The position numbers were made by a program, and so were the translations under genes. DNA of 64,000 bases from Selaginella tamariscina (taxonomy: Eukaryota; Streptophyta; Lycopodiopsida; Selaginellales; Selaginellaceae), in assembly GCA_003024785.1 (NCBI GenBank), contig PUQB01000163.1, positions 366,113 through 430,112 on the forward strand, in the 5' to 3' direction. Positions 20,488 to 64,000 of this stretch are shown here, piece by piece. Within the stretch, counting starts at the first letter, position 1. Each line of letters begins with the position of its first letter. Below the pieces are notes generated by a model. That model was not told the DNA's origin and ran no database searches. It saw only the letters and a program-made list of their open reading frames with translations.

Positions 20488-20989
20488 CGTGTATTTTGGG
20501 TCTTGGCAAAATAGAGGCTCCTAATAGGAGGCTTAGAGCATATTCTAGTATATTCTTTAATATTCTAGAGTATTCTAAGAATATTCCTACAATATTAGCT
20601 GATGTAATTGAAATCATACTTGCTGACCTAAATTATATTTGCTGCACTGAGCATAAAGTAAATGAAAGACATCGTTTAATAAATACACAAAAATATTAAA
20701 GTAACGAGAGGCATCATTTAATAAACTATACAAAAATGCCTACTCAAGTGAATCCTACCACCCACGTTTGTAATACAAGAAAACATGTTGAATGCAATAC
20801 CATTACTAAGGTTGAGTAGATACATGTCAACTACTTTAAGGATTTCAAATGACACAGTTAAATGTTTCACACCTTGTTGAACCACCTTAACCCTGATAAT
20901 ATGGCCTTGGACTATTTTGATTTGACATCATCTGCTGCTGCACATGTTCCAAGTTCTTGATGGTGTTTGTACACCTCATTGTGTTGAAG

Positions 20990-21190
20990 AATTCTGAATC
21001 TAGAACATGTTAAAGATAACCTATCCGTGCTTGCACAGAGTTGCTTCCCTTTTTGTAAGGCCCAAGCACTTTACCTGACTTGACTTCTCAATTTGGTTTA
21101 ATAACCCACTCTTTAGTGTGTACTTTTCTTTCTTCCACCTCCTACAATCTCCTCTTTGAGTTTGGAATGACATGCTCTCCACAATGGATG
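20990..21190 (-). pseudogene. MULE transposase fragment
   Basis: On the minus strand, LLNQIEKSSQVKCLGLTKRE is followed by a Cys. The gene at 58.5 kb has HWEASQVKCLGLTQDG in the matching place, and the two DNA stretches align over about 27 bases with mostly third-position changes. The piece lies about 0.6 kb from the element's left end, against 0.9 kb in the second element. Frames on either side are broken and a solo LTR cuts the region at 21202. Confidence 0.6.
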
Positions 21191-21201
21191 TTGTGCATGT
21201 G

Positions 21202-22786
21202 TGTATTATAGTTTTTTTATAACCTTTATTTTTACTTTGGTTATTACTTAGTAAACTATGTTGATAATCTCTAAGTAAACACATTTATTGATTTAATAAT
21301 GGTCTAGCCGGGTGTTGTTTAAGTATTTGTAAGAAACTCTGGGCAAAGTTAGTACTAAAACTCTTACCTTTATTTTCCTTATCTCGATTAAGTTATTGGT
21401 TAGTTTTGATGAGTTCGTCCTAGGGTTGACCTAACCCTAGGGTTGCCATAACCCCACATGGGTTAGGGTTTAGGGGATGGATCATTAAGTTAAACTCACT
21501 AACTAAATTTCTATTAAAAATGAGATTCTGTGCTTGCCCACTTTACAAAATAAGAAAACAAGAAGGGGACTCTCTGCCACATATATTAAGTAGGATACGT
21601 AATGAGAGTTCCTGAATTCATATTGAGCTCGTTTTTTTTTTACTAGTACAAGCTTTAACTTGTGTCGTTAAGGCACAACCCTCTGTTATGCCGCCTCAAC
21701 TTCTAAACAATAAAGTTATATCCCATCTTCGAGGTAGTTTATTTTTAACATTGGTAAATCAAGGTTAGAGATTGAGGCATGTCTCTAGCCTCCTCCTTCA
21801 TATCAAGTTAAGAGTAACACTCACAGCTAAAGAGCACATTTATGTTCTTGTCCAATTGTGGTTGTGAGATCTTGGTTGATATGTTTTTCTTACCAAGTTC
21901 TTGAGGGTTCACATAGGGGTTCTAAAGCTGACATTTGAGAGTCACGTTCATGGCACTTGATATAATTTTTAAATCGAAGGGTTATGGCGTGATAACCCAC
22001 ATCTTGGGAAATAGTGTCACGTGAAGATATGACATTAAATTAGATGACACATGGTACAACGCCCGAGACACACCCTTTGGGGTTGTCTCATGGACTCAAT
22101 GTCGAGGGGTTGAATACTCTAGTAAGTAAGCATGTTTGTGCTCACATTAGGGTGCTAAGCCTTGGGCATTTGCTCAAAGGAGGTTAAGTTTCCTAATTAG
22201 ATGTGTTATTGGTGTTTTCTATTTGGGATCTAAGGGTTGAACGACCTAAGCTTGTTAGCAAGAGCCCATTTTTAAGACACTCGCAAGGTCGTGTACTTAG
22301 AGTTATCCAAACCTAGCCTAGGGAGTTTACTTAGTAGAACACTCGTGTTTTCACTAAGTACTAACCCTAGGTGTATGGTATGACTTAACCACTCAAACCT
22401 TTAAGGGATTAGGGTACCCCTTGTTGCCTAAAAGGGGTTGTAATCCTGAACAAGGGTGATTTTTTAAGGGTTAAGTGACAATGCCTTAGCTTTATCACGG
22501 GGGTATGTGTGGGACACATTTTCTTGATGGGGTTAGGGCATGAGCCTATCTAGGTCTCATGGAATAGGATCCTAAATCTACTTAGGTTATTCTCTAAGGT
22601 TCGGAAAGTAGTCATTCTAGGGGACTTAGGGTAAGACCTAAGCCTCATGCCTATTTTGACATCTGAGTCAAATTCTCAGGGTTGTATTGAAAGACTTAGT
22701 GTTGTTCACACATGGTGTTAACGTTGTATGGCCACTTGGTAGCCATGTGTTGCTATGTGTTAGCCCTTTGGGTTAAAACTCTGATA
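21202..22786. repeat. Solo LTR (1.6-kb family) a
   Basis: This 1585-bp fossil has ends TGTATTATAG and AACTCTGATA. It is flanked by ATGTG on the left and GTGTG on the right (5-bp target duplication, one mismatch). Its interior matches the copy at 37767-39444 in the same orientation. No internal coding domain is present, so its superfamily cannot be named. It is inserted in the degraded transposase region of the 9.3-kb element. Confidence 0.7.
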
Positions 22787-22899
22787 GTGTGAGTGCAAAT
22801 TGTCTTTGTTGTCCTTCAGACTAGATGTTCTATGCATGCTTGAAACATGAACATTAGTTGATGTAGCAAACTTAAAACTTGTACATCCTTAAATATAAT

Positions 22900-24709
22900 G
22901 TAATAAACATATGGTGTTGCATCCTTTTAAAAGAGTTGGAAATTCCTTGTCAATACCGTCATATCTCACTCTTGCAATTTAAGTTTTAGTAGAAATAAAA
23001 TAGATGTAAAGTTTGTTAAGTGTAAACATATTAACATTTAAAGTCATGAACACAATCGAACTACTAATGCCACATAACAAATGTAATTGTTTGCCACAAA
23101 ACAATAGTAAGTTTGATTTCTATGTAATGCACTTTTCTAAAATATTATGCCAGCTCATATGATTAGTATAAGTTTTCCTAATTGGCATTAGTGGTAGAAA
23201 CAATAGACCCAATTTCAATACCCATACATGCACTTTGTAATATATTATGCCGACTCATGTGGTTGGCAATAGCTTCCCCAATTAGCACTGCCACACAATA
23301 GACCTAGTTTCACTTCTCATGCATGAACTTTTGAACATATTATGCCAACTCAAGTGGTTGGCAATAGTGTAGTATAAAATTTGTCACATAGTAGACCCAT
23401 GTTTGATTCCCATGCATGAACTTTTTAATATATATGTTGACTCAAATTGCAGACTTAGGTAGTTGGCAATAGATTCATTAGTGCCAAATAAATTTTTTAA
23501 TATATTATGTTGACTCAAGTTGTTGACTCAAGTAATTGGCAATAAATTCACTAGTGCTGAATGAACTTTTTAACATCTTGACTCAAGTAGTTGGCAATGA
23601 TTCCTTAGTCGGCACTAGTGAAGAACAAAGTTTTGTTAATAAACCCATATTATGTCAACTCAAGTTGCAGACTCAGATAGTTGGTAATAGATTTGTTAGT
23701 CGGCACTAGTGAAAAACAAAGTTTTGTCACACAATAAACTCAAGTTTGATTCCTATGTATGAACTTTTTAACATAGTAAACCTAGGTTTGATTCTCATGC
23801 ATGAACTTTTTTAACATATTATGTGACTCTAGTTGCCAACTCAAGTGGTTGGCAGTAGATTCCCAGTCAACACTAGTGGAGAACAAAGTTTTGCCACATA
23901 ATAAACCTAGGTTCAATTCCCATGCATGAACTTTCTATCATAGTAGACTTAGGTTTGGTTCCCATGCATGAACTTTTTAACATATTAAGTGACTCAAGTT
24001 GCCAACTTAGGTGGTCAGCAATAGATTCCCTAATCGGCACATTTTAACATATTATGTGACTCAAGTTGCCAACTCAAGTGGTCAACAACAGATTCCCATA
24101 ATATGTGACTCAAGCTGCCAACTCAAGTGGTCAACAACAGATTCCCATAATATGTGACTCAAGTTGCTGACTAAAGTGGTGAGCTAAAGGTTCCCTAGTC
24201 GACACTAGGGGAGAACAAAATTTTAGAGAATAAAGTTTTGACACAATAAACTCATGTTTTTTCCCATGCATGAACTTTTTAACATATATTATGTCAACTT
24301 AGGTTGTTGACTCAAGTGGTTTGCAATAGCTTCTCCCAGGTGACACTTAAATTTTTGCCACATAGTAGACCCATGTTCGATTCCCATTCATGAACTTTTT
24401 AATATATTATGTCGACTTAGGTTGTCAACTCAAGTGATTGGCAATAGCAGTCGACACTAGTGGTCGTATAATGTTTTATTACATAGTAGAGACCATGTTC
24501 AAATCCTTAACTTTTTTACATGTTATGTTAGCTTAGTTTGCCAACTCAGCTGGTTGGTAATATCTTCCCTATCAGCACTAATGGTAGTACAAAGTTTTGC
24601 TATATAATAAATGTAGGTTTGATTCCCATGAATAAACTTTTTAACATTTTTAACATATTGTGCTAACTTAGGTGGTTGGCAATAGCTTCCTCAATCATGC
24701 TTGCTGACT
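22900..24709. repeat. Degenerate tandem array, unit about 117 bp
   Basis: About 14 diverged units carry the recurring modules CATGCATGAACTTTTTAACA, TATTATG, GACTCAAGTGGTTGGCAATAG, a GTCGGCACTAGTGG-like stretch and GTTTGATTCCC. The array resumes at 27.9-28.2 kb after a solo LTR insertion. Units contain GCCGACT-like and AGTCGGC-like heptamers, the arms of the palindromes at 61.6-62.0 kb. Divergence between units is high, so the array is old. Confidence 0.65.
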
Positions 24710-24714
24710 CAGAT

Positions 24715-27700
24715 TGTCAAAGTTTTACTTGAAGGGCCAACACGTGGCTGCCAAGTAGCCATCCGACGTCAACACCTTGTTTGAGCAATACTAAGTCTTT
24801 TAAGACAACCCTGAGAGTTTAACTTAGATGCCCAAATACACATGAGACTTACCTTAAGTCTCCTAAAATGATTACCTCCTGAACTTTAGAGAATATCCCA
24901 AGTAGACTCTAAGATCCTGCCCCATGAGACCTAAACATATTTATGCCCTAACCCCACTAAAAAGACATGTCCCACAAATACCTCCAAGATAGAGCTAAGG
25001 CAATGTTACTTTTATCCCTTGAGGAATCATCTTTGTTCAAAAGTACAATCCTTTTGGGCAACAAGGAGTACCCTAAACCACAAATAACCACGAATAGCCT
25101 CTAAGGGTTTGAGTGGCCAAGTCATGAGAATCTGATGTATTTAGACTTAGGGTTAATACTTAATGAGGGACATGATTAATGCTAGGTTTGGATAACCCTA
25201 AGTACATGACCTCGCAAGTGCCTTACAAAAGAGCTCTTACTAATGAGCTTAGGTTGTTCAACCCTTAGATCCCAAAGAGAACACCCAGTCAAGTGTGTCA
25301 ATAACACACCCATTTATGAAACCTAACCTCACAACCCAAAGGCCATGCCTCATGCATTGTACGAGTATCATCAACTTAATGTCACATGTTCATGTGACAC
25401 TATTTCCCAAGATGTGGGCTATCTCGATTCAAGAGTTACACTTGGTGCTACAAATGTGGCTCACATAGGCCAACTCTAGAACCCCTTTGTGAACTCTTAG
25501 GAACTTTAATAAGAGAACCTATCAACTAAGATCCCACGCCCGTAGTTAGACAAGAATACAAATGTGTCTTACTTAATTATGAGTGTTGCTCTTAGCTTGG
25601 AGGTTGAAGATATGCCTCAATCTATAACCCTTACAACGTGTATTTTGACAAGATCTCCTAGGTGTAGATTTATTAACATTAAAGGTAGGCTACCCTAAAG
25701 GAAGGATGTATCCCATCGTATGGAAGTTAAGGCAACATAATAAAAGAGTTGTGCCTTAATAACACAAAGCTAAATGTCAGAGTTTTAATTAAAGGGCAAC
25801 ATGTGTTGCCAAGTGACCATTCAGTGTCAACAGCCTGTGTGAGCAATGCTAAGTCTTCTAAAGAGTCTAACTATATGCCTAAATAGGCTAGAGACCTAGG
25901 GTTTTACCTAAGTCCCTTAAAATGCCTATCCCCCAAACCTTAGAGGATAATTGAGTAGACTTTAGAGTCTTGTCCAACATGCTCATGCCCTAACCCCACT
26001 GAGGGGACATACCTTACACATGCCCCCATGACAAGGCTAAGGTGTCATGACTTACCTCTTGAGGAATCACTTCATCTGGAAGTACAACTCTTTAAGGCGA
26101 CAAGGGGTACCCTAACCCAGGACTAATCCATAAGGGTTTGAATGGCCAAGTCATACCTTAACCTAGGGCTAATACTTAGTGAGAACACGAGTGTGCATCG
26201 TATGCAAACACGAGTGTTTTGTTAAATAAATCCCTAAGCTAGGTTTGGATAACCCTACCTACACAACCTCACAAAAGGGCTCCTACTAATGAGCTTAGGT
26301 TGTTCAACCCTGGATCCAAGAAGAACACCCCTTAGCAAGTGTGCCAATAGCACACCTAGTTACGAGACTAACCTCCTTGAGCCGATGCCCAAGGCTTAGC
26401 ACATGATGTGAACAAACATACTTGCTTGCTAGAGTATCCAACCCCTTGTTTAAGCCCATAAGACAATCCTAAAGGGCGTGCCTATTGTGTCTTTATGTGA
26501 CATTGTTTCCCAAAATGTGGACTATATCACTATAACCCCTTAGATTCAAGAGTTACACTTGGTGCCACGAACGTGGCTTACAAATGTAAACTCTAAAATC
26601 CCTTTGTGAACCCTTAGGAACTTGGTAAATAGAATATATCAGCTAAGATTCTAAGCCACAGTTGACAAGGACGTGGATGTGTCTTACTTAGCTGTGAGTG
26701 TACTCCTAGCTTATTCATGGAGGAGAGGTTAAAGACATGCCTTAACTTTTGACTCTTGTAATGTACACTTCAACAAGCCTCTAAGCATGGATTCTTCAAC
26801 ATTAAGGGTAACTACCCTAAAGGTGGAACTTACCCCTATGTTTAAAAGTTAGAGCAGCACAATATAGGGTTGTGCCTTAATGACACAAGTTAGAGCTTGC
26901 ACCGGTAAAAGAATAATGAGCTCAGTTATAAACTTAAGAACTTTCATTACACATCCTACTTAATATATATGATAGAGCCCCCCCCCCCCCCCCCCCCTTC
27001 TATATGTGTAAAGTGGGTTAGTATGGAATCTCATTCCCAATAGAAATATACTTTGTGAGTTTAACTTAAATGACCCATCAATCCCTAAACCTTAACCTAA
27101 GGGGTTTAAGGCATGGGGTTAGGGCAACTTGAGGATTAAGTCAATCCTAAGGGTCTTTCTAATGTCGAATTCATTAATAACCCAACTGAGACATAAAAAA
27201 CAAGGGTAAGAATTTTTTAGATGAAAATGCTAGCTTTGCTTAGAGTTTTTTATAAATACCCAATTGGACCATCACTAGATATAAGTGCACTAAGCATGCT
27301 TATTTCTTATAACACCTAGGGCTTTTTAACATAATTTAGTAAGTAACAACAATCAACTCCAAAGTAAAAGTAAAGGTCATAATAAAAACTATGACATAAA
27401 GCTTGCACTAGTAAAAGAATAACGAATTCAACTATGAACCCATGAACTCTCACTACATATCCTACTTAATATATATATGACAAATCCTCTCCTCTTTATT
27501 TTCTTATTTTGTAAATTGGGCTAGCACATAATATCATTCCCAATAAGAATATATTTGATAAGTTTAACTTAATGACTCATCCACCCCTAAACCCTAACCT
27601 AAGGGGTTTAAGGCATGGGTTAGGGCAACCCTAGGGTCAAGTCAACCCTAGTACCCATATTTGACATGCCGAACTCATTAATAACCCAATCGGGACATAA

Positions 27701-27884
27701 AAAATGAGAGTAAAAGTTTTTTAAATGGAGGTGCTAGTTTCACCTAGAGTTTCTTATAAATATCCAATGACACATGGCTGGATCATTACTAAATACTCAA
27801 ATGCATTACATGGGTCAATATAGTTCAATAAGCAACAACAATCAATGTCCAAAGTCAAGAGGAATCATAATAAAAATTATGACA
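24715..27884. repeat. Solo LTR b (outer), interrupted by solo LTR c
   Basis: A fossil of the same 1.6-kb family, inverted relative to copy a: it begins TGTCAAAGTTTTAC and ends AAAAATTATGACA. Five-base flanks CAGAT and CAAAT differ at one site. It is split at 25775-27396 by a complete second LTR. The outer copy alone is about 1.55 kb and sits inside the 117-bp satellite. Confidence 0.7.
25775..27396. repeat. Solo LTR c nested in LTR b
   Basis: 1622 bp from TGTCAGAGTTTTAA to AAAACTATGACA, in the same orientation as the outer copy. TAAA flanks both sides and the outer LTR resumes in register after it. It contains a run of about 20 C residues near 26.98 kb at the place where the copy in the copia element has a G run. 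Confidence 0.7.
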
Positions 27885-28200
27885 CAAATGGTTAGCAACT
27901 AAGTTGGTTGGCAATAACTTCCTCAATCATGTTTGTTGACTCAAGTGGTTAGCAACTAAGTTGGTTGGCAATAGCTTCCCCAATCATGCTTGCCAACTCT
28001 GGTGGTTGGCAATAACTTCTATAGTCAGCACTAGTGTCAGAACATTACAACATAGACATATGTTCAATTCTTAAATGGTTAATATAAGTTCTTTTAATTC
28101 AACTCAAATAATGAATGAAAGTTCTTTTAATCGGCACTAGTGGTAAAATAATTTTTTGTCACAAAATAAATTAAGGTTTGATAGCTTAAGTCATCCCCAA
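27885..28200. repeat. Remainder of the satellite array
   Basis: Two to three further degenerate units (GGTTAGCAACTAAGTTGGTT, GTTGGCAATAGC) continue the array broken by LTR b. Confidence 0.55.
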
Positions 28201-29497
28201 TTTAATTGACAAGTGATCCTCGTCATACTATGTTTGGAACCGGTTTCAATGAACAACATAAGCTCTCCAAGGCAACAATTAGGTACTCAAGTCATTATTT
28301 AATACATATCCATTTCCCCCATAGGTGGCCAAGTCATTTCCATGGGTCTTTATTTTGTGCCAACTCAATTTATCAGCATAAGTAACACAAGTCAATAGCA
28401 AATCACTCTTTGTCTATTACTCACTTTTAGTCCTCCTAACCTTCTAACAAAAATAACATGTCAAGCCCTTCCTCCCTAGCGGGATAAATCCCGCCAAGCA
28501 TTTCTTGCCCTCCCTAAATGTTGAAAATCGGGTTGTTTAATTTAGTATTTTTTGTAATTATGTCAAGTGTTTATCAATATAATGCTGAGGCAAACATGAT
28601 AGCAAAACTAGCATGAATGCCATGCAAGATTTTTGATTGAGGCCACACAATAAATTCGCAAACACAATTTATAAAAGAGGTAGGTGAGTATAGTTTCAAT
28701 CAGTGTTCCTTAATCTCCCCAATGACTTGAAGATATTGAATTCTTGCTTGAACAATGACCTATTGCATCTTGATCCAATAAGGTTTAATGAAGCCTTTTA
28801 ATTTACAAACATCCACAAATGACTTCATGTTGATATTCAAAAATGGTTACATGGTGCTATTTGCAATAGTCTCCATGATCTATAGAGATGTACATGCAAC
28901 TAATGTCATTCAGTAGGGACTTTCAATGACATATTTCAGCCATGGATGGGGATATTATCAAGGGATGAAAGTATTTTACTCACAAATGTTTTCTTATTAT
29001 AATTGATTTATTTTATCTTTCATAAATCTTTGCTAATTATGTTGCTTTACATGCCTTTAAAAACTTGTCAATCGATAATCTATTGCAACTTGGGAACACA
29101 CTCCTCATGGACATATTAGATCGATATCAAGCGTTATAATAAGATTTCTTATAATAGTTCTGTACTATCAACTTCATGTACAGCTCAAGAGTGTGTGACT
29201 TATGTAGCTCATGATCTATAAGCTTACATGTAGGGCAATCTTGTTTGGAATATAAGGTTAGGAACCAAATTATCTTTGGTTGTAGTGATTGACTTGGCCA
29301 GAAACATTTTAGGAACAAAGCAATTGTTTGAGTAACCATGTTTGCCAATGTAAGAATCACAAGTGATATTAGGGTTAATGAGATAGTAACTTAACCACCT
29401 TTTAGTACTACTCATGTTAGCAATTTTAGGATCATAACGAGGTTAAAAAAAAAAAGAGAAATATGTAGCCAAGTGTAGGCCATAATATTTATGTGAT
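28201..29497. other. Right part of the 9.3-kb transposon, no intact gene
   Basis: Minus-strand frames with broken protein-like sequence occur (about 29.13-29.42 kb, for example HELHKSHTLELYMKL), but no family could be assigned. The last 130 bp before the end (29.71-29.83 kb) hold GCCGACC, ATGCCGAT and AATATTCTAAG motifs. Confidence 0.35.
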
Positions 29498-30146
29498 GTA
29501 CGCAGTTAGTGTATATTTTGACTAATATATTAGTGTACAATATTTATACAAGCTATGTTTATTGAATAATATATAAGCACTAATGTTTTATGGTATAATA
29601 TTATGCAAGTTCTAATTAACTTTGTGGTGTAAAACATGCTGCAAAAAACATTATAACATACTAAATTTATACTCCACATTTATAATATACTAAAGAAATA
29701 TTCCTTTCAAGGCTAGCATACAAATTCGCCGACCATGGAGTATTATGCCGATTAAAAAATATTTTATCAAAATCCTAGAATATTTTTGGATATTTTAAAA
29801 TATTCTAAGCACAATCCTCCTCTTTTTGGCGGGACTCGTGTATTTTCTGTGTCTATGCTGTACACATTAAAATCAATTATAAACATAATCACAATAAAGA
29901 TCCATAAGTGATATGATTAACCTTATATTCTTATATGACGACGACACCGTAAATAAATTATTCTTTTTCTATGTAATTGGCCACTGCTGTCTTGTCATTG
30001 TTTCATATGCAAGATCTCCTATATAAGCCAAGAACAGGACCACTCCATTGTGTCGCTTCTAGCTATGGAGAACACTCAAAGAGAGTGCTTGTCTCTTGTC
30101 TTGTTTTGATTCGTGTTCTTTGTATAGTTGCAGTTATAAAAAAAGA

Positions 30147-52083: not shown

Positions 52084-52168
52084 TGGGGTGAGAGAGGCTC
52101 GAACTCTCGACCTCAGGATAACTCAGAAGCTATGAGACCTACGCGCTGACCAACTGCGCCACCACCCA
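52084..52168 (-). tRNA. Elongator tRNA-Met (CAU) with intron
   Basis: The minus strand reads GGGTGGTGGCGCAGTTGGTC, an anticodon arm with CTCATA (anticodon CAT at 52134-52132), and a T arm GAGAGTTCGAGCCTCTC. An intron of about 12 nt lies after the anticodon (AGCTTCTGAGTTAT region), the typical place in plant elongator tRNA-Met. A and B boxes are intact. The first base of the acceptor stem appears to be T rather than G, so the first pair would be mismatched. It sits between the DHDPS stop (106 bp away) and the PPR start (31 bp away), all on one strand. Confidence 0.88.
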
Positions 52169-57425: not shown

Positions 57426-57682
57426 GTTCTAAGTCTAAAGTAAAAGTCGTAAATCTTGGTCATATGGTAAGAGAGGTACAAAATGTCATAATAATAAAAC
57501 ATGAAAGTCTCTAAGCTTCTCTTTAGAGCAGTCCACACCTTGACTGGGTTTTCGAGGATATTTCCATTGGAGGATTGGCAAAAACCGGGCTTCGTACAAC
57601 GGGCTTTTCGCATATTCCCGAATATCCAGGAATATTCTAGAATATTCTGCCAAGTAGATTATCTTTAACTTTCATTATAAAA

Positions 57683-57743
57683 TGCCGACCAACAAGTGAA
57701 AAACGCTAATTATTTGCCGACTAGACTTTACTATACCGACTAA
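57683..57743. repeat. Subterminal half-sites of the palindrome
   Basis: Three near-copies TGCCGACC (57683), TGCCGACT (57715) and TACCGACT (57734) occur within 60 bp, between the end of the element and the transposase stop. TGCCGACT is one arm of the palindromes at 61.6-62.0 kb. Confidence 0.45.
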
Positions 57744-57745
57744 AC

Positions 57746-60700
57746 TTAAAAAGTCGCAGGTTCGACATTGCGCTTGCAACCAACCAATAACCGATGCACT
57801 TCTGCTGGAGTAAGGGTCCGCCTCTGTAAGAAGTAAGTAATCGTTGGGTCTAATCCAAGAACATGAGTGTACACAAAATACATGTGTTGGCAGGGGCTCC
57901 AGTTCTTGGCTTTCTGAAAAGTTGCACAAGTGCATGACGGAACAGCAGAAATTGTTACCTTAGCAGATTGCATGCCTGCAGAGACAATGAAGGCCTCAGT
58001 CTTCCCTCTTTGAACCACCTCCACGTTGTTGATCCGACCTTGAAGAATCTTTGCCTGGTTGTAATGTTTCTCATGTTCCTTGGACATTCTTGTTGGTGTT
58101 CGCACACTCCGTCCATGGTATGTTGGTACTCTATGTGCTCCCTCTCCTCTTGGTGGTGATGGTGTTCGATCCATTCGGCTACTACTGTCGTCTACCATTT
58201 CTTCAAATCCCTCCAACTTGAATCCTGCTTTCAGAAGAGCTTCAACCTCATTTGCATTCAAGTTTGTTCCTTTTTGAACTGGCCAAACCTCTGGAACTTC
58301 TGGAATACTCTCAGGAGGAATCCCTGCATATGGTCGTCTGAAGCAACAAGAATCGCGTGGGCAGAACCATAGCATCTGATGAGTGAACTCAATGTTCCCA
58401 AATGCATTTGTATATTGCCGTCTACCGTGAAATCCTGGTGCCGGTACACGATGTGGATATCCTATGGGTCTGCCACACTTGCTGTTACCGTCCTGAGTGA
58501 GACCTAGACATTTCACCTGACTTGCCTCCCAATGCGTCTGATGGCCCACTGAGTCATCAACGTCTCTCTTTCAGTGACATTGACATCTTGAAACTTGAGT
58601 TTTTTCCTGCGTGCATTTGGGATGACTTGTTCTGCATATTGTGTGTCATGTCTATGTGTACGAAGTGCATCAATCCCATGGTCCCCAGTTGACGGTTGAC
58701 GAACGGTTCGAACACGAACATTTGTTGTAGAGGCAAACTCTGGACTTGCAAGATGCTCTTCATCACTAACAAGATTTGCAAAAGTTGTTGGAGACACTGA
58801 TTTTCCCGCTGAAAGTTTCTGCTGTGCACGTTTCAGAAGAGTTTCCATGGAAGGACCTGTGCCTGAATATCTCCCTTCAAATGATGCCTTGACCTTTGCA
58901 CTTTGGAAAACAGCATCTGTTAAATCTAACATTGTTGCCTCCAACAAAGGAACACGCTTCGTCAGCCTTGCTCTTCGTGCTCTTGCATGAACAACTTCGG
59001 AGTTGTTAGTGGTAGGCACATTCGCAACACCATCTTCTGTCAAGTCAATTATCTCTGTCATGGAAATATGATCTTCATGTCTTGCCCACCATGACAGCCA
59101 TGTTTGCAAAGCGCTAACGTTACTGGACCTGCCTTCCCAAAATGACTCCAACATTACTCGTCGTTCCAACTTATCTTGGTTGGTTAGTGCTGCAGGCCAT
59201 GAGCGTGCAAGGTTCATGTGCTCCTCCCTGTGTTCCTCAAGTATCCACTTCTTTGTAACTTGACGCACTGACTGCATGTAATGGAACAAACAACTCCTTT
59301 CTCTTCCTCTCATCTTTGACCCATTGTTGAAAACTTGCGCAATGCTAACCAAATTGCACCTGACTCATCTGACATGAACCCCGCAAAGTTCACATTATGA
59401 AGTCCTTGCTTGCTGCACACTTGAAGCATAGTGTTCAAAAATTTGATCACCGCCACACTATCCTCCCTGATCATGTCACCATAAGCAAGTGTCACCATCG
59501 ACCTTAAACTGCACAAACATAAGTGCATTATATTAGTAAGTATTTTAAAACATAGATATGTTAATACTTACAATGGATCATAGAGATGTATTCCCAGTGT
59601 ACACCAATCATCAATACGATATGTGTGGTCTAGCACCACCCACTGCTGTTCGAGATCACCTCCAGATTGACACCTTCTAATGTAGTCTATTCCGGATCCT
59701 GGGCCGGCAACTGTCATTTTGAAGATTAAAGGCTGCTCTTCAGCTCCGTTGAGGTCCATTCCGGGTATGTGGATAACATGTATGAATGGGATTGATAGCT
59801 TCTTCTTTAACTGCAGAAGTCCTTCGTAACCTTCTTTGAAACGAGTGTCTGTTGTTCTAGCCTGAGATATCCATTCTCTTGTTCTACATTGGAAAGGTTA
59901 AGCATCTCCAAAAGGAAATAATAATTTTTTTGCTTACCGGCGGTGATTTGTGAGTGGTAGTAGATCTGACAGAACCTTGTCGTATGATACATCTCCAGAA
60001 TCTGTTACCAGTTTTTCCAAAATTATATTGCGTGCTGCTTGAAACTCTATGACACGTTGATTAGTTCTTGGGGTTGCAGCGACTGCTTTGTTGATTGTCT
60101 CCTTAGCTCTATCTTTAGAGACCATGGATTCGGGTGGTCTACGTGGGTGTTGATGTTCTCCAAGATGGATGAAAAGCCTCGTGCATGTGATATCATCTGG
60201 AATTATGTAATATGCAACAACGGAGCATGTCTGCACTAGAAGGGGCTCATTGTTGCAATGCACACACTTCATTCCAAGCACTCTACCATCTGAAGATAAC
60301 TGGACTTTATCAATGGTGCCCTTAAATTGGCAGTCATTTGCTTTCTTACTGAAGCTGATGAACGGACATGTTTCCTTTACGCATTTCATGTGGCCAATAC
60401 ATGAACTGCGACTAACACGAGCTGGAACATTCCAATGTGTTGTGCAGCGTTGAGTCCAGTAATCACACCCATCCTTCCTATTCATCCCTTTGTACTTGTC
60501 CTTCATTGTTTCGTGTGCTGGCAACTCGTAAATCACATTTCCGTTGCAATCTTCTGGGACCTCAGCAACTTGCTGAATCGATGACGAGACCACCAGTTGC
60601 TTCCCAATCCTACATCTCTGACTATTGCGAAGTATTGTTACCATAGAATTGTCCCGATCTGTTGTCTCCAACCGGAATAGCGGTCCTTTGGAAGGAAGAA

Positions 60701-60916
60701 GTGTGTAATACACAAAACTGCTAGCTCTTGCCCCTTCTGGTTCTACCTCAACATTCACAGCATCTCCACCAACAACAGACATCAAATGCAGCACTTTAAA
60801 AGATTGCCAAGGTGAATGTCAAATGCAGACCTGAGATCTGTTTCAAAGACAAATGCAATACCATCTTCATCTGCAGGGAAGTCCTTGTCAACACCATTGT
60901 AGCTGATTCTTGCCAT
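57746..60916 (-). CDS. MULE-type transposase with C-terminal SWIM finger
   Basis: The gene starts at 60916 (MARISYNGVDKDFPADEDG) and ends at 57746. Confirmed junctions: donor 59938/acceptor 59883 and donor 59572/acceptor 59508, both in phase. Order of parts: an N-terminal region; a Cys/His-rich domain of about 120 residues (CDYWTQRC to HLGEHQHPRRP) that resembles the WRKY/GCM-type fingers of MULE transposases; a DDE core with WVVLDHTYRIDDW, FAGFMSDESGAIWLAL and SCLFHYMQSVRQVTKKW; an NLS-rich linker; SQVKCLGLT with following Cys; and a SWIM finger (SCTCATFQKAKNWSPCQHMY). Frame changes near 60.81, 59.34 and 58.54 kb interrupt the reading. A decayed or imperfectly sequenced transposase is the best call. 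Confidence 0.65.
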
Positions 60917-61319
60917 GTAGCAAAAATGGAACAAACAAAAGTTAAAATTCAAAGACAATGAACATATTACACACGATGGTTAATGTGTTTGTCAGTCGTG
61001 AGGCAATCATTTCATTGACAAATATTAAAAATAATATTAATTGCGTGCGTCTGGGTAAAGAGTGAAATTAATTTACTGCGTCTGGGTAGGTTTTTTGTAA
61101 ATTAAAAAGTTTTACTATGTACAAGTGGCGATCATGCATGCAATATGTTTACAGAAATTAGGTTGGTTTTTAATTGATTTAGGGCGGCTAGGGTTTTGCA
61201 ATTAGGGCGGCTAGGGCAGCGAGGGCGGCTAGGTTTTCGTGGAGCAGCGGCGCATTTGGGGGCATAGCGTGGAGCAAGTGTGGCTCCAGGGATTAATCAC
61301 AATAGGCTTCCATTGAGGG

Positions 61320-62092
61320 GGTGAGTATTTTCTGATTTCTTCATGATCTGCTCATGATCTTTTCATGATCTGTTCATCTTTTTACATCTCTTCACAGTTG
61401 CAAGAAATCCGAGTCGGCCTGCCGACTCGGACTGACTTCGTTGTCCGTCCCAGTCGGCAGGCCGACTGGGGTGGACTGTTCCAGATCCAGTCAACATTTT
61501 GACCGGGGTTGACTGTTCCAGCCCCAGTCAGCATTTTGACTAGGGTTGACTGTTCTAGTCCCACCTAGCATTTTGACTGGGCCTTGTTTCGTTCCCAGTC
61601 CCAGTCGGCATGCCGACTGGGCCTCCCTTTGATGCCAGGCCCAGTCGGCATGCCGACTGGGCCTCCCTTTGTTGCAGGCCCAGTCGGCATGCCGACTGGG
61701 ACTCCCTTTGTTGCCAGCCCAGTCGGCATGCCGACTGGGCCTCCCTTTGTTGCCAGGCCCAGTCGGCATGCCGACTGGGACTCCCTTTGTTGCCAGTCCC
61801 AGTCGGCATGCCGACTGGGCCTCCCTTTGATGCCAGCCCAGTCGGCATGCCGACTGGGACTCCCTTTGATGCCAGGCCCAGTCGGCATGCCGACTGGGAC
61901 TTTGATGCCCCAGTCGGCATGCCGACTGGGACTCCCTTTGTTGCCAGCCCAGTCGGCATGCCGACTGGGACTTACAGCAACTGCTCTCTCAGTCGGCACG
62001 CCGACTGTGAGGGCTAGTATGTTTTTTTAATTTTTATTAAACATCTTTGAACATTTATTACAGTTTTTTGTTAAACCTTATTGCTTTTGTAG
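61320..62092 (+). promoter_or_regulatory. Probable 5'-UTR intron containing the palindromic array
   Basis: A donor-like GAGGGG|GTGAGTATTT (about 61320) and a strong acceptor TTATTGCTTTTGTAG (ending 62092) directly before the ATG at 62093 suggest a leader intron. If so, the array is transcribed and could act in RNA as well as DNA. Not proven from sequence. Confidence 0.45.
61412..62010. repeat. Array of perfect 22-bp palindromes
   Basis: Ten copies of the perfect palindrome CAGTCGGCATGCCGACTG, each flanked by CC on the left and GG on the right, begin at 61600, 61640, 61679, 61718, 61758, 61798, 61837, 61877, 61909 and 61948. Periods are 40, 39, 39, 40, 40, 39, 40, 32 and 39 bp. The 17-18-bp spacers are near-identical (CCTCCCTTTGTTGCCAGG type). 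On the left are two variants with an altered centre (61410, 61450) and three decayed units. On the right is one variant at 61989. The palindromes are better conserved than the spacers. Each contains two inverted GCCGAC cores. Confidence 0.95.
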
Positions 62093-63951
62093 ATGCGCTC
62101 TTCACAACGTTTACAAGAAAAGAAGATGAAGGAGCCTACTGAGAGAGAAGCAGAAGCTAGAGCTGCAATTCAGAGAGGGCGTCGGGGTCGTGGGAGAGGA
62201 AGTAGGAAGCTGGCTGTGGTTCAGGAACAAGGACCTTCAAGTGATGCTCCAGTTGAACAGGCAAGCCAGCAGGACTGGTCAGGAGAGCAAGAGGATGTAG
62301 TTCAACCCCAACAAGAACAATCAGACTTTGTTGAAGAAGTTGAGGATGATGTCTTACCACAGGAGACACAGGAGCAGACAGAAGGCACACAAGCATCATG
62401 CGCAGTGACTTTGTCGAGTGACGAAGAGGATGAACCCAAGAGCAAGAAGAGACGACGCAAAGCTGCTGGAGATTCAGAGGCTGCTAAGAAGAAGAAGAAG
62501 GGGAAAGCAGAAGTGCCAGATAATGAGGAAGTTTACAACATTGCAGCCAGCATGCATTCGGAGAGTGCAGTGCGTCTTCTCGCGAAGATCACAATCCGAG
62601 AATATGGAGAGGCACCGGATGTCCCTATTTGCCGAATTCTGGGAAATGAGCAGGTGCGGAGAGTCAATCCAGCGGATCTGGAATCTTTGACTAGGAGTTT
62701 CAAGAAGGCAGTTGGTTATTTGCGCAACACCACTCAGTTCATCCTTCAAGTTGGGGACCCCATGACAGATGCAGATCTGGCAGCATTGAGAAGCGATGAA
62801 GCGATGTATGCTCAGCATTTGGCTTTTGAGGAGGAGCTTCAGTCCGACATGTTCCGGCAATGGGCACCAATGCTTTCGATGAAGAAGTTCATCTGTTGGG
62901 ATGGTAATCACAGGCTAAAGGTGCTTCAGAAGCTGTACACAGAAGACACGGAAGATAAGATTCAGTGGGCAGTGAGAGTGCGTTCAGGCTTCATCCGTGC
63001 TGGGGTCATGGATAATCTTCAGCTTGTGACAATGTTTCAGCAAATTAATAGGTAAACAGAGTGACCTCTAGATCATAGGATTAACTAACTTCGAGCTTTT
63101 CAAATATGCAGTTCCTCCGCAACGGCAGTGCAAACCACACTGCCACATCTTCTGCTATCTGTGAAGACATGTTGCACCAGTGAGGAGGGCACAGCGAAGA
63201 TCTTGGCCAGGCTCAGTGACAAGGAACGAGATGACATAAGAAAGTGGAAGGAAAGCGCGACTGGACAACAAGCTTGGCATCCACTTCCGAATTTGATCTG
63301 TGCAAAGATCTTTTTTGAGGTACCATGTCTCACACTTATATCACTTAGTTGATTACGTCTGTGAATTACAGAGTGAGATTGAGGATGATCTTGAGAAGGC
63401 TGCAAGGGCATCCAAAGGCAACAAATACCAGGAGCAACAACAGGTCTACATTAAGCATGACAAGCGCATGATGAAGATCTTAGCCATCATCGATCCTGCA
63501 TTGGGTGAAGAGTGGTTCGACAAGGTGACCCAAATCACATGGAAACAATGCAGATGGATGGGGTTGGAAAAGCTGTACGCGCTTTCAAGGGCGAGAATTC
63601 CAAACGAGACGAGAATCATGTACTTCAATAAACTGGTACGTCTCGATCTGAAGAGAGAGCAAGAGACACTTGGATTGCCGGGTGTTCAGGATAAGGAGTG
63701 GATAAGGTGGTTTACTATCGATTTGTATTGGGGGCAATCAGAGAGGAGGCAGTACAGATTCTCACGGGACTCATCGAGGATGGCGAGTGGAGCAGGCCGG
63801 TTACAGATTTCACGACTTGGTGCGATGAAGTGCGGGTAAAATGCAAGAACGTGATGTTCCAGCCATTCCATGAGTGTGTGAAGTTCACTTACTCCATAGA
63901 GCCGAAAGAGTTCCTCGAACACGAAGAGACAGCAAGAAGGATGATTTGGAG
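62093..63951 (+). CDS. Nuclear protein with a ParB-like segment (partial, continues beyond the window)
   Basis: Exons 62093-63051, 63112-63319 and 63372-63951 have clean GT-AG borders and correct phase, and a further donor (GGAG|GTAAGG) shows the gene continues. The first 160 residues are acidic and Gln/Glu-rich with an RGRRGRGRGS patch and a strong nuclear signal (SKKRRRKAAGDSEAAKKKKK). Residues about 170-310 resemble a ParB/sulfiredoxin fold: ICRILGNEQVRRVNPADLES with a helix, then a strand and KKFICWDGNHRLKVLQKLY, close to the ParB DGxxRL box. The later part has no recognised domain (ITWKQCRWMGLEKLYALSRA). One frame change occurs near 63.69 kb. In ParB-fold proteins this box binds nucleotide. 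The role here is unknown. It diverges from the transposase across the palindrome array. Confidence 0.5.
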
Positions 63952-64000
63952 GTAAGGATGATCTTCTTGACATTGTTACATTCTGACACTACTATATGTT

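Follow-up and report, generated by a model that had tools for sequence, protein, structure and literature searches.

What would a plant transposon do with a regular array of palindromes set between two divergent genes, one of which ends in a bacterial-type DNA methyltransferase domain? The question arises from a 64,000-nucleotide stretch of the Selaginella tamariscina genome (contig PUQB01000163.1, here C464:366113-430112; hereafter, the window), whose right-hand part carries a copy of a transposon family that we call F1. The copy begins at 57570, reaches the window end at 64000, and continues to C464:431746 (window-equivalent position 65634), so that the last 1.6 kb of its 8065 bp lie outside the window; ends, length, and target-site duplications (TSDs) were established from ten stitched copies. 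A first-pass annotation had described two divergent genes with ten perfect 22-bp palindromes between them, all of which are present, but it set the limits of the unit at 57572..63951, and the second gene (gene 2) in fact ends at 65412 with the methyltransferase domain. Transposase, array, and methyltransferase-tailed gene 2 were found to form one mobile unit. The whole is best explained, with a probability of about 0.5, as a built-in self-recognition system that would serve anti-silencing or self-regulation in the manner of VANC from the Arabidopsis VANDAL transposons.

The evidence for a single unit comes from the other copies in the genome. The array DNA was searched against the assembly (300.7 Mb, 1391 contigs), yielding 153 overlapping matches, with 40 of 219 first-look candidates scored. 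Ten of the eleven top-scoring array places were taken with their flanks, and the copies were thus selected via the array. All ten contained a unit of 8036 to 8160 bp, with pairwise identities of 99.1 to 100% (gaps left out), and most started with GAGGATTGGCAAAAACC and ended with CTTTTTGTCGGGACTC. Transposase, array, and gene 2 followed one another in order in all 12 whole copies, namely, these ten plus C504 and C561. An array or a gene 2 standing without the transposase, which the first-pass annotation had set against its own proposal, was seen in none of the 12. The ten copies occupy eight distinct insertion sites, and an 8- to 9-bp TSD was read by eye at each of the eight. Three copies (C982, C214, and C893) share one insertion with identical flanks, which indicates redundant or allelic contigs in the assembly; between C893 and C982/C214 there are 5 substitutions and 16 gap columns. 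When all 40 array places were compared with 56 of the 151 listed gene-2 matches, picked to cover contigs with arrays, a gene-2 exon was found 508 to 587 bp downstream on the same strand at 36 of the 40. The partnerless arrays were those at C599, C571:561186, C726, and C1040, and three of these four have a methyltransferase match at the expected place. Together with a diverged family, F2, that holds all three parts, these counts bear out the proposal that the genes and the array are inherited as one.

Substitutions between F1 copies outside the array number only 2 to 55 (median, 0.27%), and the family is therefore young. It is also abundant, with at least 151 gene-2 matches in the genome, mostly 99 to 100% identical (150 of 1411 candidates scored). 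C504 and C561, whose lower array identity had made them candidates for diverged relatives, proved to be ordinary F1 copies with changed arrays. C531, a candidate for a further family, was a rearranged F1 copy in the part that was read. At C531:71800-77000 (L047), an inverted second stretch of gene 2 extends across a shortened array, which suggests that the palindromic array may be a rearrangement hot spot.

The array itself (61409..62009) consists of ten perfect 22-bp palindromes and six degenerate dyads. The perfect units, CCCAGTCGGCATGCCGACTGGG, start at 61600, 61640, 61679, 61718, 61758, 61798, 61837, 61877, 61909, and 61948, a spacing of 39 to 40 bp and once 32 bp, and the degenerate sites lie at 61409, 61449, 61486, 61523, 61560, and 61988. 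The number of perfect units varies from 6 to 11 between F1 copies. TA repeats aside, the window has just three other perfect palindromes of at least 18 bp, two of them AT-rich and the third at the left end of the element (57630), so palindromes of this kind are no background feature.

The comparison with F2 shows which part of the array has been kept. F2 was located via the methyltransferase model alone and not via the array, and transposase, array, and gene 2 are all present in it; the three-part order was verified end to end in C113 only, and the F2 ends were placed by eye. The gene 2 products of F1 and F2 are 56% identical (970 codons; proportion of synonymous differences [pS], 0.83; proportion of nonsynonymous differences [pN], 0.30), and the transposases are 62% identical (990 codons; pS, 0.79; pN, 0.26). 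Both genes have been under purifying selection between the two families, although saturation of synonymous sites precludes a numerical dN/dS. Judged by these distances, F1 and F2 are old sisters. Their arrays are built differently: F1 has abutting palindromes about every 40 bp, whereas the F2 array in C113 repeats a 137-bp unit in which the half-sites form inverted pairs with a spacing of 25 bp. With no word preset, the top 8-mer shared by the F1 and F2 intergenic regions was TGCCGACT, occurring 25 times in F1 (C893) and 17 times in F2, while words that were not shifts of it reached at most 2. The feature conserved between the families is thus this half-site and not the 22-bp palindrome. In the C464 copy of F1, TGCCGACT occurs 23 times in the array, once near the left end (57715..57722, forward strand, 145 bp from that end), once near the right end (65500, 135 bp from that end), and nowhere else in 8 kb, with 0.15 occurrences expected outside the array. 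F2 likewise has 17 in the array, one at 116 bp from the left end, one at 112 bp from the right end, and none elsewhere in 9 kb. Given the divergence of the two families and their common word, the proteins and the word have been kept while the array was rebuilt. The earlier likening of the palindromes to sites for an element-encoded protein gains support here.

Three further places (C516, C565, and C1293), each read in part, were considered as additional families, but they proved to be copies of F2 that are older or have been rearranged. The transposase of C516 has the opposite orientation to that of C113, and the piece read there holds only three half-sites. The F2 array units (L043:195-1240, 137 bp) also contain AAG/GTAT, which resembles a splice donor, and a polypyrimidine-CAG/AG resembling an acceptor, as though a small leader exon bearing the half-sites had been copied repeatedly.

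A third and decayed relative, F3, lies in the same window and was found by tblastn with gene 2 and the transposase. It spans 9340 bp (20498..29837) between perfect 9-bp TSDs, GTGTATTTT, at 20489-20497 and 29838-29846. Transposase remnants were detected on the reverse strand (20871..22978), and methyltransferase remnants of gene 2 with many stops were detected on the forward strand (28644..29460; tblastn with joined F2 pieces; E value of 4e-13 for the match set). Its array (23248..24546) is made up of TGCCGACT and one-base variants, mostly TGCCAACT. Exact or one-mismatch half-sites number 18 in 1.4 kb, where the rest of the window would predict 0.55: 3 are exact, 8 are TGCCAACT, 1 is TGCTGACT, 3 are TGTCGACT, 2 are TGCAGACT, and 1 is TGCCGATT. 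Of these variants, TGCCAACT and TGCTGACT are the two products of CG decay of the word, and the remaining three reflect other changes. The ratio of observed to expected CpG is 0.27 in F3, compared with 0.58 in F1, 0.59 in the window between 30 and 57 kb, and 0.73 in F2, which fits an old copy methylated by the host. Because CpG is low in F3 and its commonest variant is a CG decay product, we suggest that a host methylation target lies within the word. The inverted pairs in F3 are mostly 24 bp apart, near the 25 bp of F2. The F3 array can also be described as TGCC(A/G)ACT sites, and tandem repeats occur within F3 at 23419-24180 and 27880-28012.

Gene 2, like the transposase, is a gene model predicted from sequence. 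It has six exons on the forward strand and encodes 1015 residues, in the order of a long charged part, a segment with the motif DGNHR, a middle part that matched no family, and a beta-type N6/N4 methyltransferase domain. Exons 1 to 3 (62093..63951: 62093-63051, 63112-63319, and 63372-63951) would encode the charged N terminus, the ParB/Srx-like DGNHR motif, and the conserved middle; exons 4 to 6 (64009-64897, 64950-65065, and 65118-65412), beyond the window, would encode the methyltransferase domain. The frame is open in two of ten copies (C893 and C912), with identical products. A possible 5' leader intron (61320..62092, forward strand), with a donor-like GGTGAGT and an acceptor-like TTTTGTAG before the ATG, would enclose the array. 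The C terminus matches PF01555 (E value of 6.9e-9; 36.4 bits versus a cutoff of 26.7) and PHROG families of phage DNA methyltransferases (E value of 3.6e-12), and weak matches were obtained in the PDB to MboIIA (E value of 5e-4) and CcrM (E value of 1e-3). Aligned by hhalign with four bacterial methyltransferases, gene 2 gave a probability of 97%, and the best of 30 shuffles gave 16%. The profile alignments span the S-adenosylmethionine (SAM)-binding region only. There the motif DIGSGTG is well preserved, as in beta-type N6/N4 enzymes. The catalytic motif IV of these methyltransferases has the consensus [DNS]PP[YFW]. The corresponding position, placed by eye outside the profile alignment, reads DLPN in all ten F1 copies and in F2; methyltransferase activity is therefore uncertain, and the role of the domain may be that of a reader or binder, not an enzymatic one. 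No relatives of the methyltransferase were confirmed in viral contigs.

The segment upstream of the methyltransferase had been called ParB-like at first pass. The motif is real, and FICWDGNHRL in gene 2 resembles YWLADGFHR of the bacterial ParB-methylase P0003 and of ParB N-terminal-domain proteins. The fold found no such confirmation. The DGNHR region matched no ParB model in Pfam and nothing relevant in PHROGs, NCBIfam, or PADLOC, and a PDB search gave one chance match (E value of 0.5). An hhalign comparison of F1 plus F2 with five bacterial ParB proteins gave 2.2% and a score of 21.8, where 40 shuffles reached 1.7% and 20.9, and the alignment did not fall on the DGFHR motif; the 240 residues used of the fifth protein, from Geminocystis, were mostly N-terminal extension. 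A single-sequence AlphaFold2 model of the region, with a predicted local distance difference test (pLDDT) score of 42, was uninformative. A ParB fold in gene 2 is thus an unproven, motif-level call from DGNHR alone.

The transposase gene (57746..60916) lies on the reverse strand with predicted exons at 60916-59938, 59883-59572, and 59508-57746. It encodes 1018 residues, and its frame is open in two of ten copies, C269 and C893, the latter with a locally shifted stretch. The first-pass annotation had named it a SWIM-type Mutator-like element (MULE) transposase. A SWIM-like finger is indeed encoded at 57860-57958, just below the Pfam cutoff (16.6 versus 19.6 bits), and a similarly subthreshold finger occurs in the F2 transposase and in the environmental relatives P0001 and P0002, which are 27 to 28% identical. 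No Pfam transposase or MULE model matched the F1 genes or the F2 transposase. A MULE-type DDE order in the transposase and its association with a SWIM finger are putative, judged by eye. TSDs were 8 to 9 bp, mostly 9, at all eight F1 sites, a perfect 9 bp in F3, and 8 bp by eye in F2. By its layout, we classify F1 as a two-gene Mutator-type DNA transposon, the superfamily name resting on TSD length, SWIM finger, and layout.

The copy in the window is itself defective. Single-base deletions at 58528, 59337, and 60813 in the transposase gene and at 63731 in gene 2 break both frames. The first is private to this copy, while the others recur in C982/C214, C1006, and C269, respectively, and none is present in more than 3 of the 10 aligned copies. 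Two of the four fall inside one-base runs. Since three of the four are also found in copies at other sites, the frameshifts speak for inherited decay; assembly error is a lesser possibility, given that C893 and C982, at the same site, also differ.

At the left end, the TSD (tttccattg; 57561..57569) was read by eye, as was its right counterpart, which lies beyond the window end and has three extra T residues before it. The terminal inverted repeats are short and imperfect, comprising CAAAAAnnGGGCTTC and GAATATTC modules, and exceed all of 300 shuffles. The left terminal repeat (57570..57594, forward strand) matches the right end over CAAAAAnnGGGCTTC, and a subterminal palindrome, GAATATTCTAGAATATTC, follows at 57630..57647. 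Repeats of GAATATTC occur at 57630-57647 and at window-equivalent positions 65528-65581; F1 and F2 both have them close to each end, and F3 has similar sequences. They constitute a candidate transposase site, separate from TGCCGACT.

We consider it very probable that TGCCGACT is a binding site for an element-encoded protein. Granted this, the gene-2 protein is probably the binder, because the array stands at the 5' side of gene 2, possibly in its leader intron, and because the transposase could use the distinct GAATATTC repeats at the ends. The element-encoded protein, most likely that of gene 2, would dock on TGCCGACT in the array and at both ends. Docking in many copies could then, more tentatively, keep the control region and ends free of host silencing and/or adjust the expression of gene 2, as VANC does for VANDAL. 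VANC is the closest worked-out precedent for such a system. According to two reports on VANDAL (PMC5735166 and PMC10398659), the target of VANC21 is a 9-base motif that occurs in arrays in noncoding regions and introns, and with binding, silencing marks are lost; turnover of the arrays takes place through the formation of tandem repeats, and the motifs coevolve with the proteins. As described there (Hosaka 2017, PMC5735166; Sasaki 2023, PMC10398659), the VANDAL elements are, like F1, multigene Mutator-type transposons with an accessory gene, and, like F1 and F2, they carry tandem arrays of a short noncoding motif that are rebuilt between relatives. In contrast, F1 and F2 have an inverted or palindromic half-site, one main intergenic array plus sites at both ends, and short terminal repeats. 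Unlike the VANDAL genes, their gene 2 ends in a DNA methyltransferase domain of bacterial type.

Several observations weigh against a self-recognition system. Each of the two genes is open in only two of ten copies. The dyad symmetry is weak evidence, as 5 paired positions in the six degenerate F1 dyads (three of which coincide in position) carry compensated changes on the two sides, compared with 15 that have changed without compensation. Catalytic motif IV departs from the consensus in F1 and F2 alike. The word is unchanged from F1 to F2 despite only 56% identity in gene 2, and no coevolution of protein and motif was observed. Because pair spacing is alike in F2 and F3, rebuilding of the array is clear only for F1 versus the others. 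Word-based searches of 5.8 billion proteins, one of them with a capped number of candidates, scored no gene-2 homologues, and F1 to F3 come from one genome. Finally, the subterminal TGCCGACT sites are equally compatible with binding by the transposase.

This last point leads to the main rival, which is doubtful in our view but a serious contender. The array and the two subterminal sites might all be transposase sites, forming an internal enhancer or landing platform that joins the ends, or a buffer that curbs transposition as the copy number grows. The occurrence of the 8-mer once near each end in addition to the array, in F1 and also in F2 with its eye-placed ends, speaks for such a role, and the transposase is no less conserved than gene 2. 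However, the array lies at the 5' side of gene 2, possibly in its leader intron, its size far exceeds what a transpososome would presumably need, and the GAATATTC repeats offer the transposase alternative sites at the ends. A host transcription factor might instead bind the array as a strong bidirectional promoter, gene 2 having an unrelated role. The position between divergent genes and a short conserved word with flexible spacing would suit a promoter, yet sites at the extreme ends, behind the 3' ends of the genes, would be superfluous to it, and many identical sites renewed in separate families are, to judge from VANDAL, more typical of self-recognition. We regard the promoter explanation as improbable.

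It is very unlikely that the array lacks a protein-binding role altogether and is only a side effect of replication slippage or a template for hairpin RNA. The variable number of perfect units would be expected from slippage, and perfect palindromes are able to fold. Against this, different arrays in F1 and F2 are built around one 8-mer, in which F3 is rich too; the inverted pairs of F2 are separated, so abutting hairpins are not the conserved feature; and single subterminal sites would be left without explanation. The first-pass analogy with ParB and parS, in which the system would maintain, cluster, or segregate copies, has fared worst and now seems scarcely credible. It drew on the likeness of DGNHR to the DGFHR of a bacterial ParB-methylase and ParB N-terminal-domain proteins and on palindromic sites that adjoin the gene. 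However, the fold has no support from Pfam, hhalign, or AlphaFold2, Pfam scans of gene 2 and the transposase (the only two proteins scanned) revealed no ParA-like ATPase family, what has been conserved is a half-site, set at different intervals in F1 and F2, and integrated elements would presumably have no need of partition. The analogy is further weakened because gene 2 shares its part order with bacterial ParB-methylase fusions, and these have been described as having nothing to do with partition: in PMC5512222, the ParB domains of polyvalent phage and plasmid proteins are proposed to be nucleases with no connection to partition, and the ParB-methylase Bce_0392 is cited as a nicking enzyme.

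Those bacterial proteins (Bce_0392, as cited in PMC5512222, and P0003 from a Chlorohelix plasmid) resemble gene 2 in having the DG.HR domain first and a beta-type N6/N4 methyltransferase last. Gene 2 differs in length (1015 versus 481 residues), in being a spliced plant gene, in motif IV (DLPN versus DPPY), and in a ParB part that profiles do not recognize. The lineage might have adopted a bacterial protein of the ParB-methylase type as its self-recognition factor, which would dock on the array and both ends and mark its own copies with N6-methyladenine (6mA) or N4-methylcytosine (4mC) or block host CG methylation within the word; we think this extension unlikely. Accessory genes of other elements have gained enzyme domains as well, and the Ulp1-carrying VANC genes (KIU, Kaonashi) of MULEs without terminal inverted repeats, described in PMC13317346, are comparable to gene 2 in this respect, although there the captured domain is Ulp1 and not a bacterial-type methyltransferase. 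Among the titles and abstract openings listed by full-text literature searches, none reported a MULE with such a methyltransferase-tailed gene, which is weak evidence of absence, as most subscription papers and repeat databases lay outside the collection searched. Bacterial-type DNA modification in a eukaryote is reportedly represented by the N4-cytosine methylation system of bdelloid rotifers; that system is said to be a horizontally acquired host gene, whereas gene 2 is part of a transposon.

To our knowledge, VANDAL is the one transposon group in which sequence-specific anti-silencing is known. F1 adds another candidate. Its 8-bp word is defined, two diverged families and a decayed one are found in a single genome, gene 2 has abundant matches there, and its product bears a bacterial-type methyltransferase domain of uncertain activity. 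If the lineage did take up a bacterial ParB-methylase-type protein in the manner considered above, sequence-specific anti-silencing would have evolved a second time, independently of VANC, and, as far as we know, for the first time from a bacterial modification enzyme. Two ideas become testable in F1, namely, that anti-silencing systems have originated repeatedly and that transposons have turned bacterial DNA modification domains against eukaryotic silencing.

Elsewhere, the window carries a pentatricopeptide repeat (PPR) gene, cupins, and a gypsy-type reverse transcriptase, a content that suggests a land plant. The sole RNA family scoring at gathering level in it is a tRNA, at 52084-52168.

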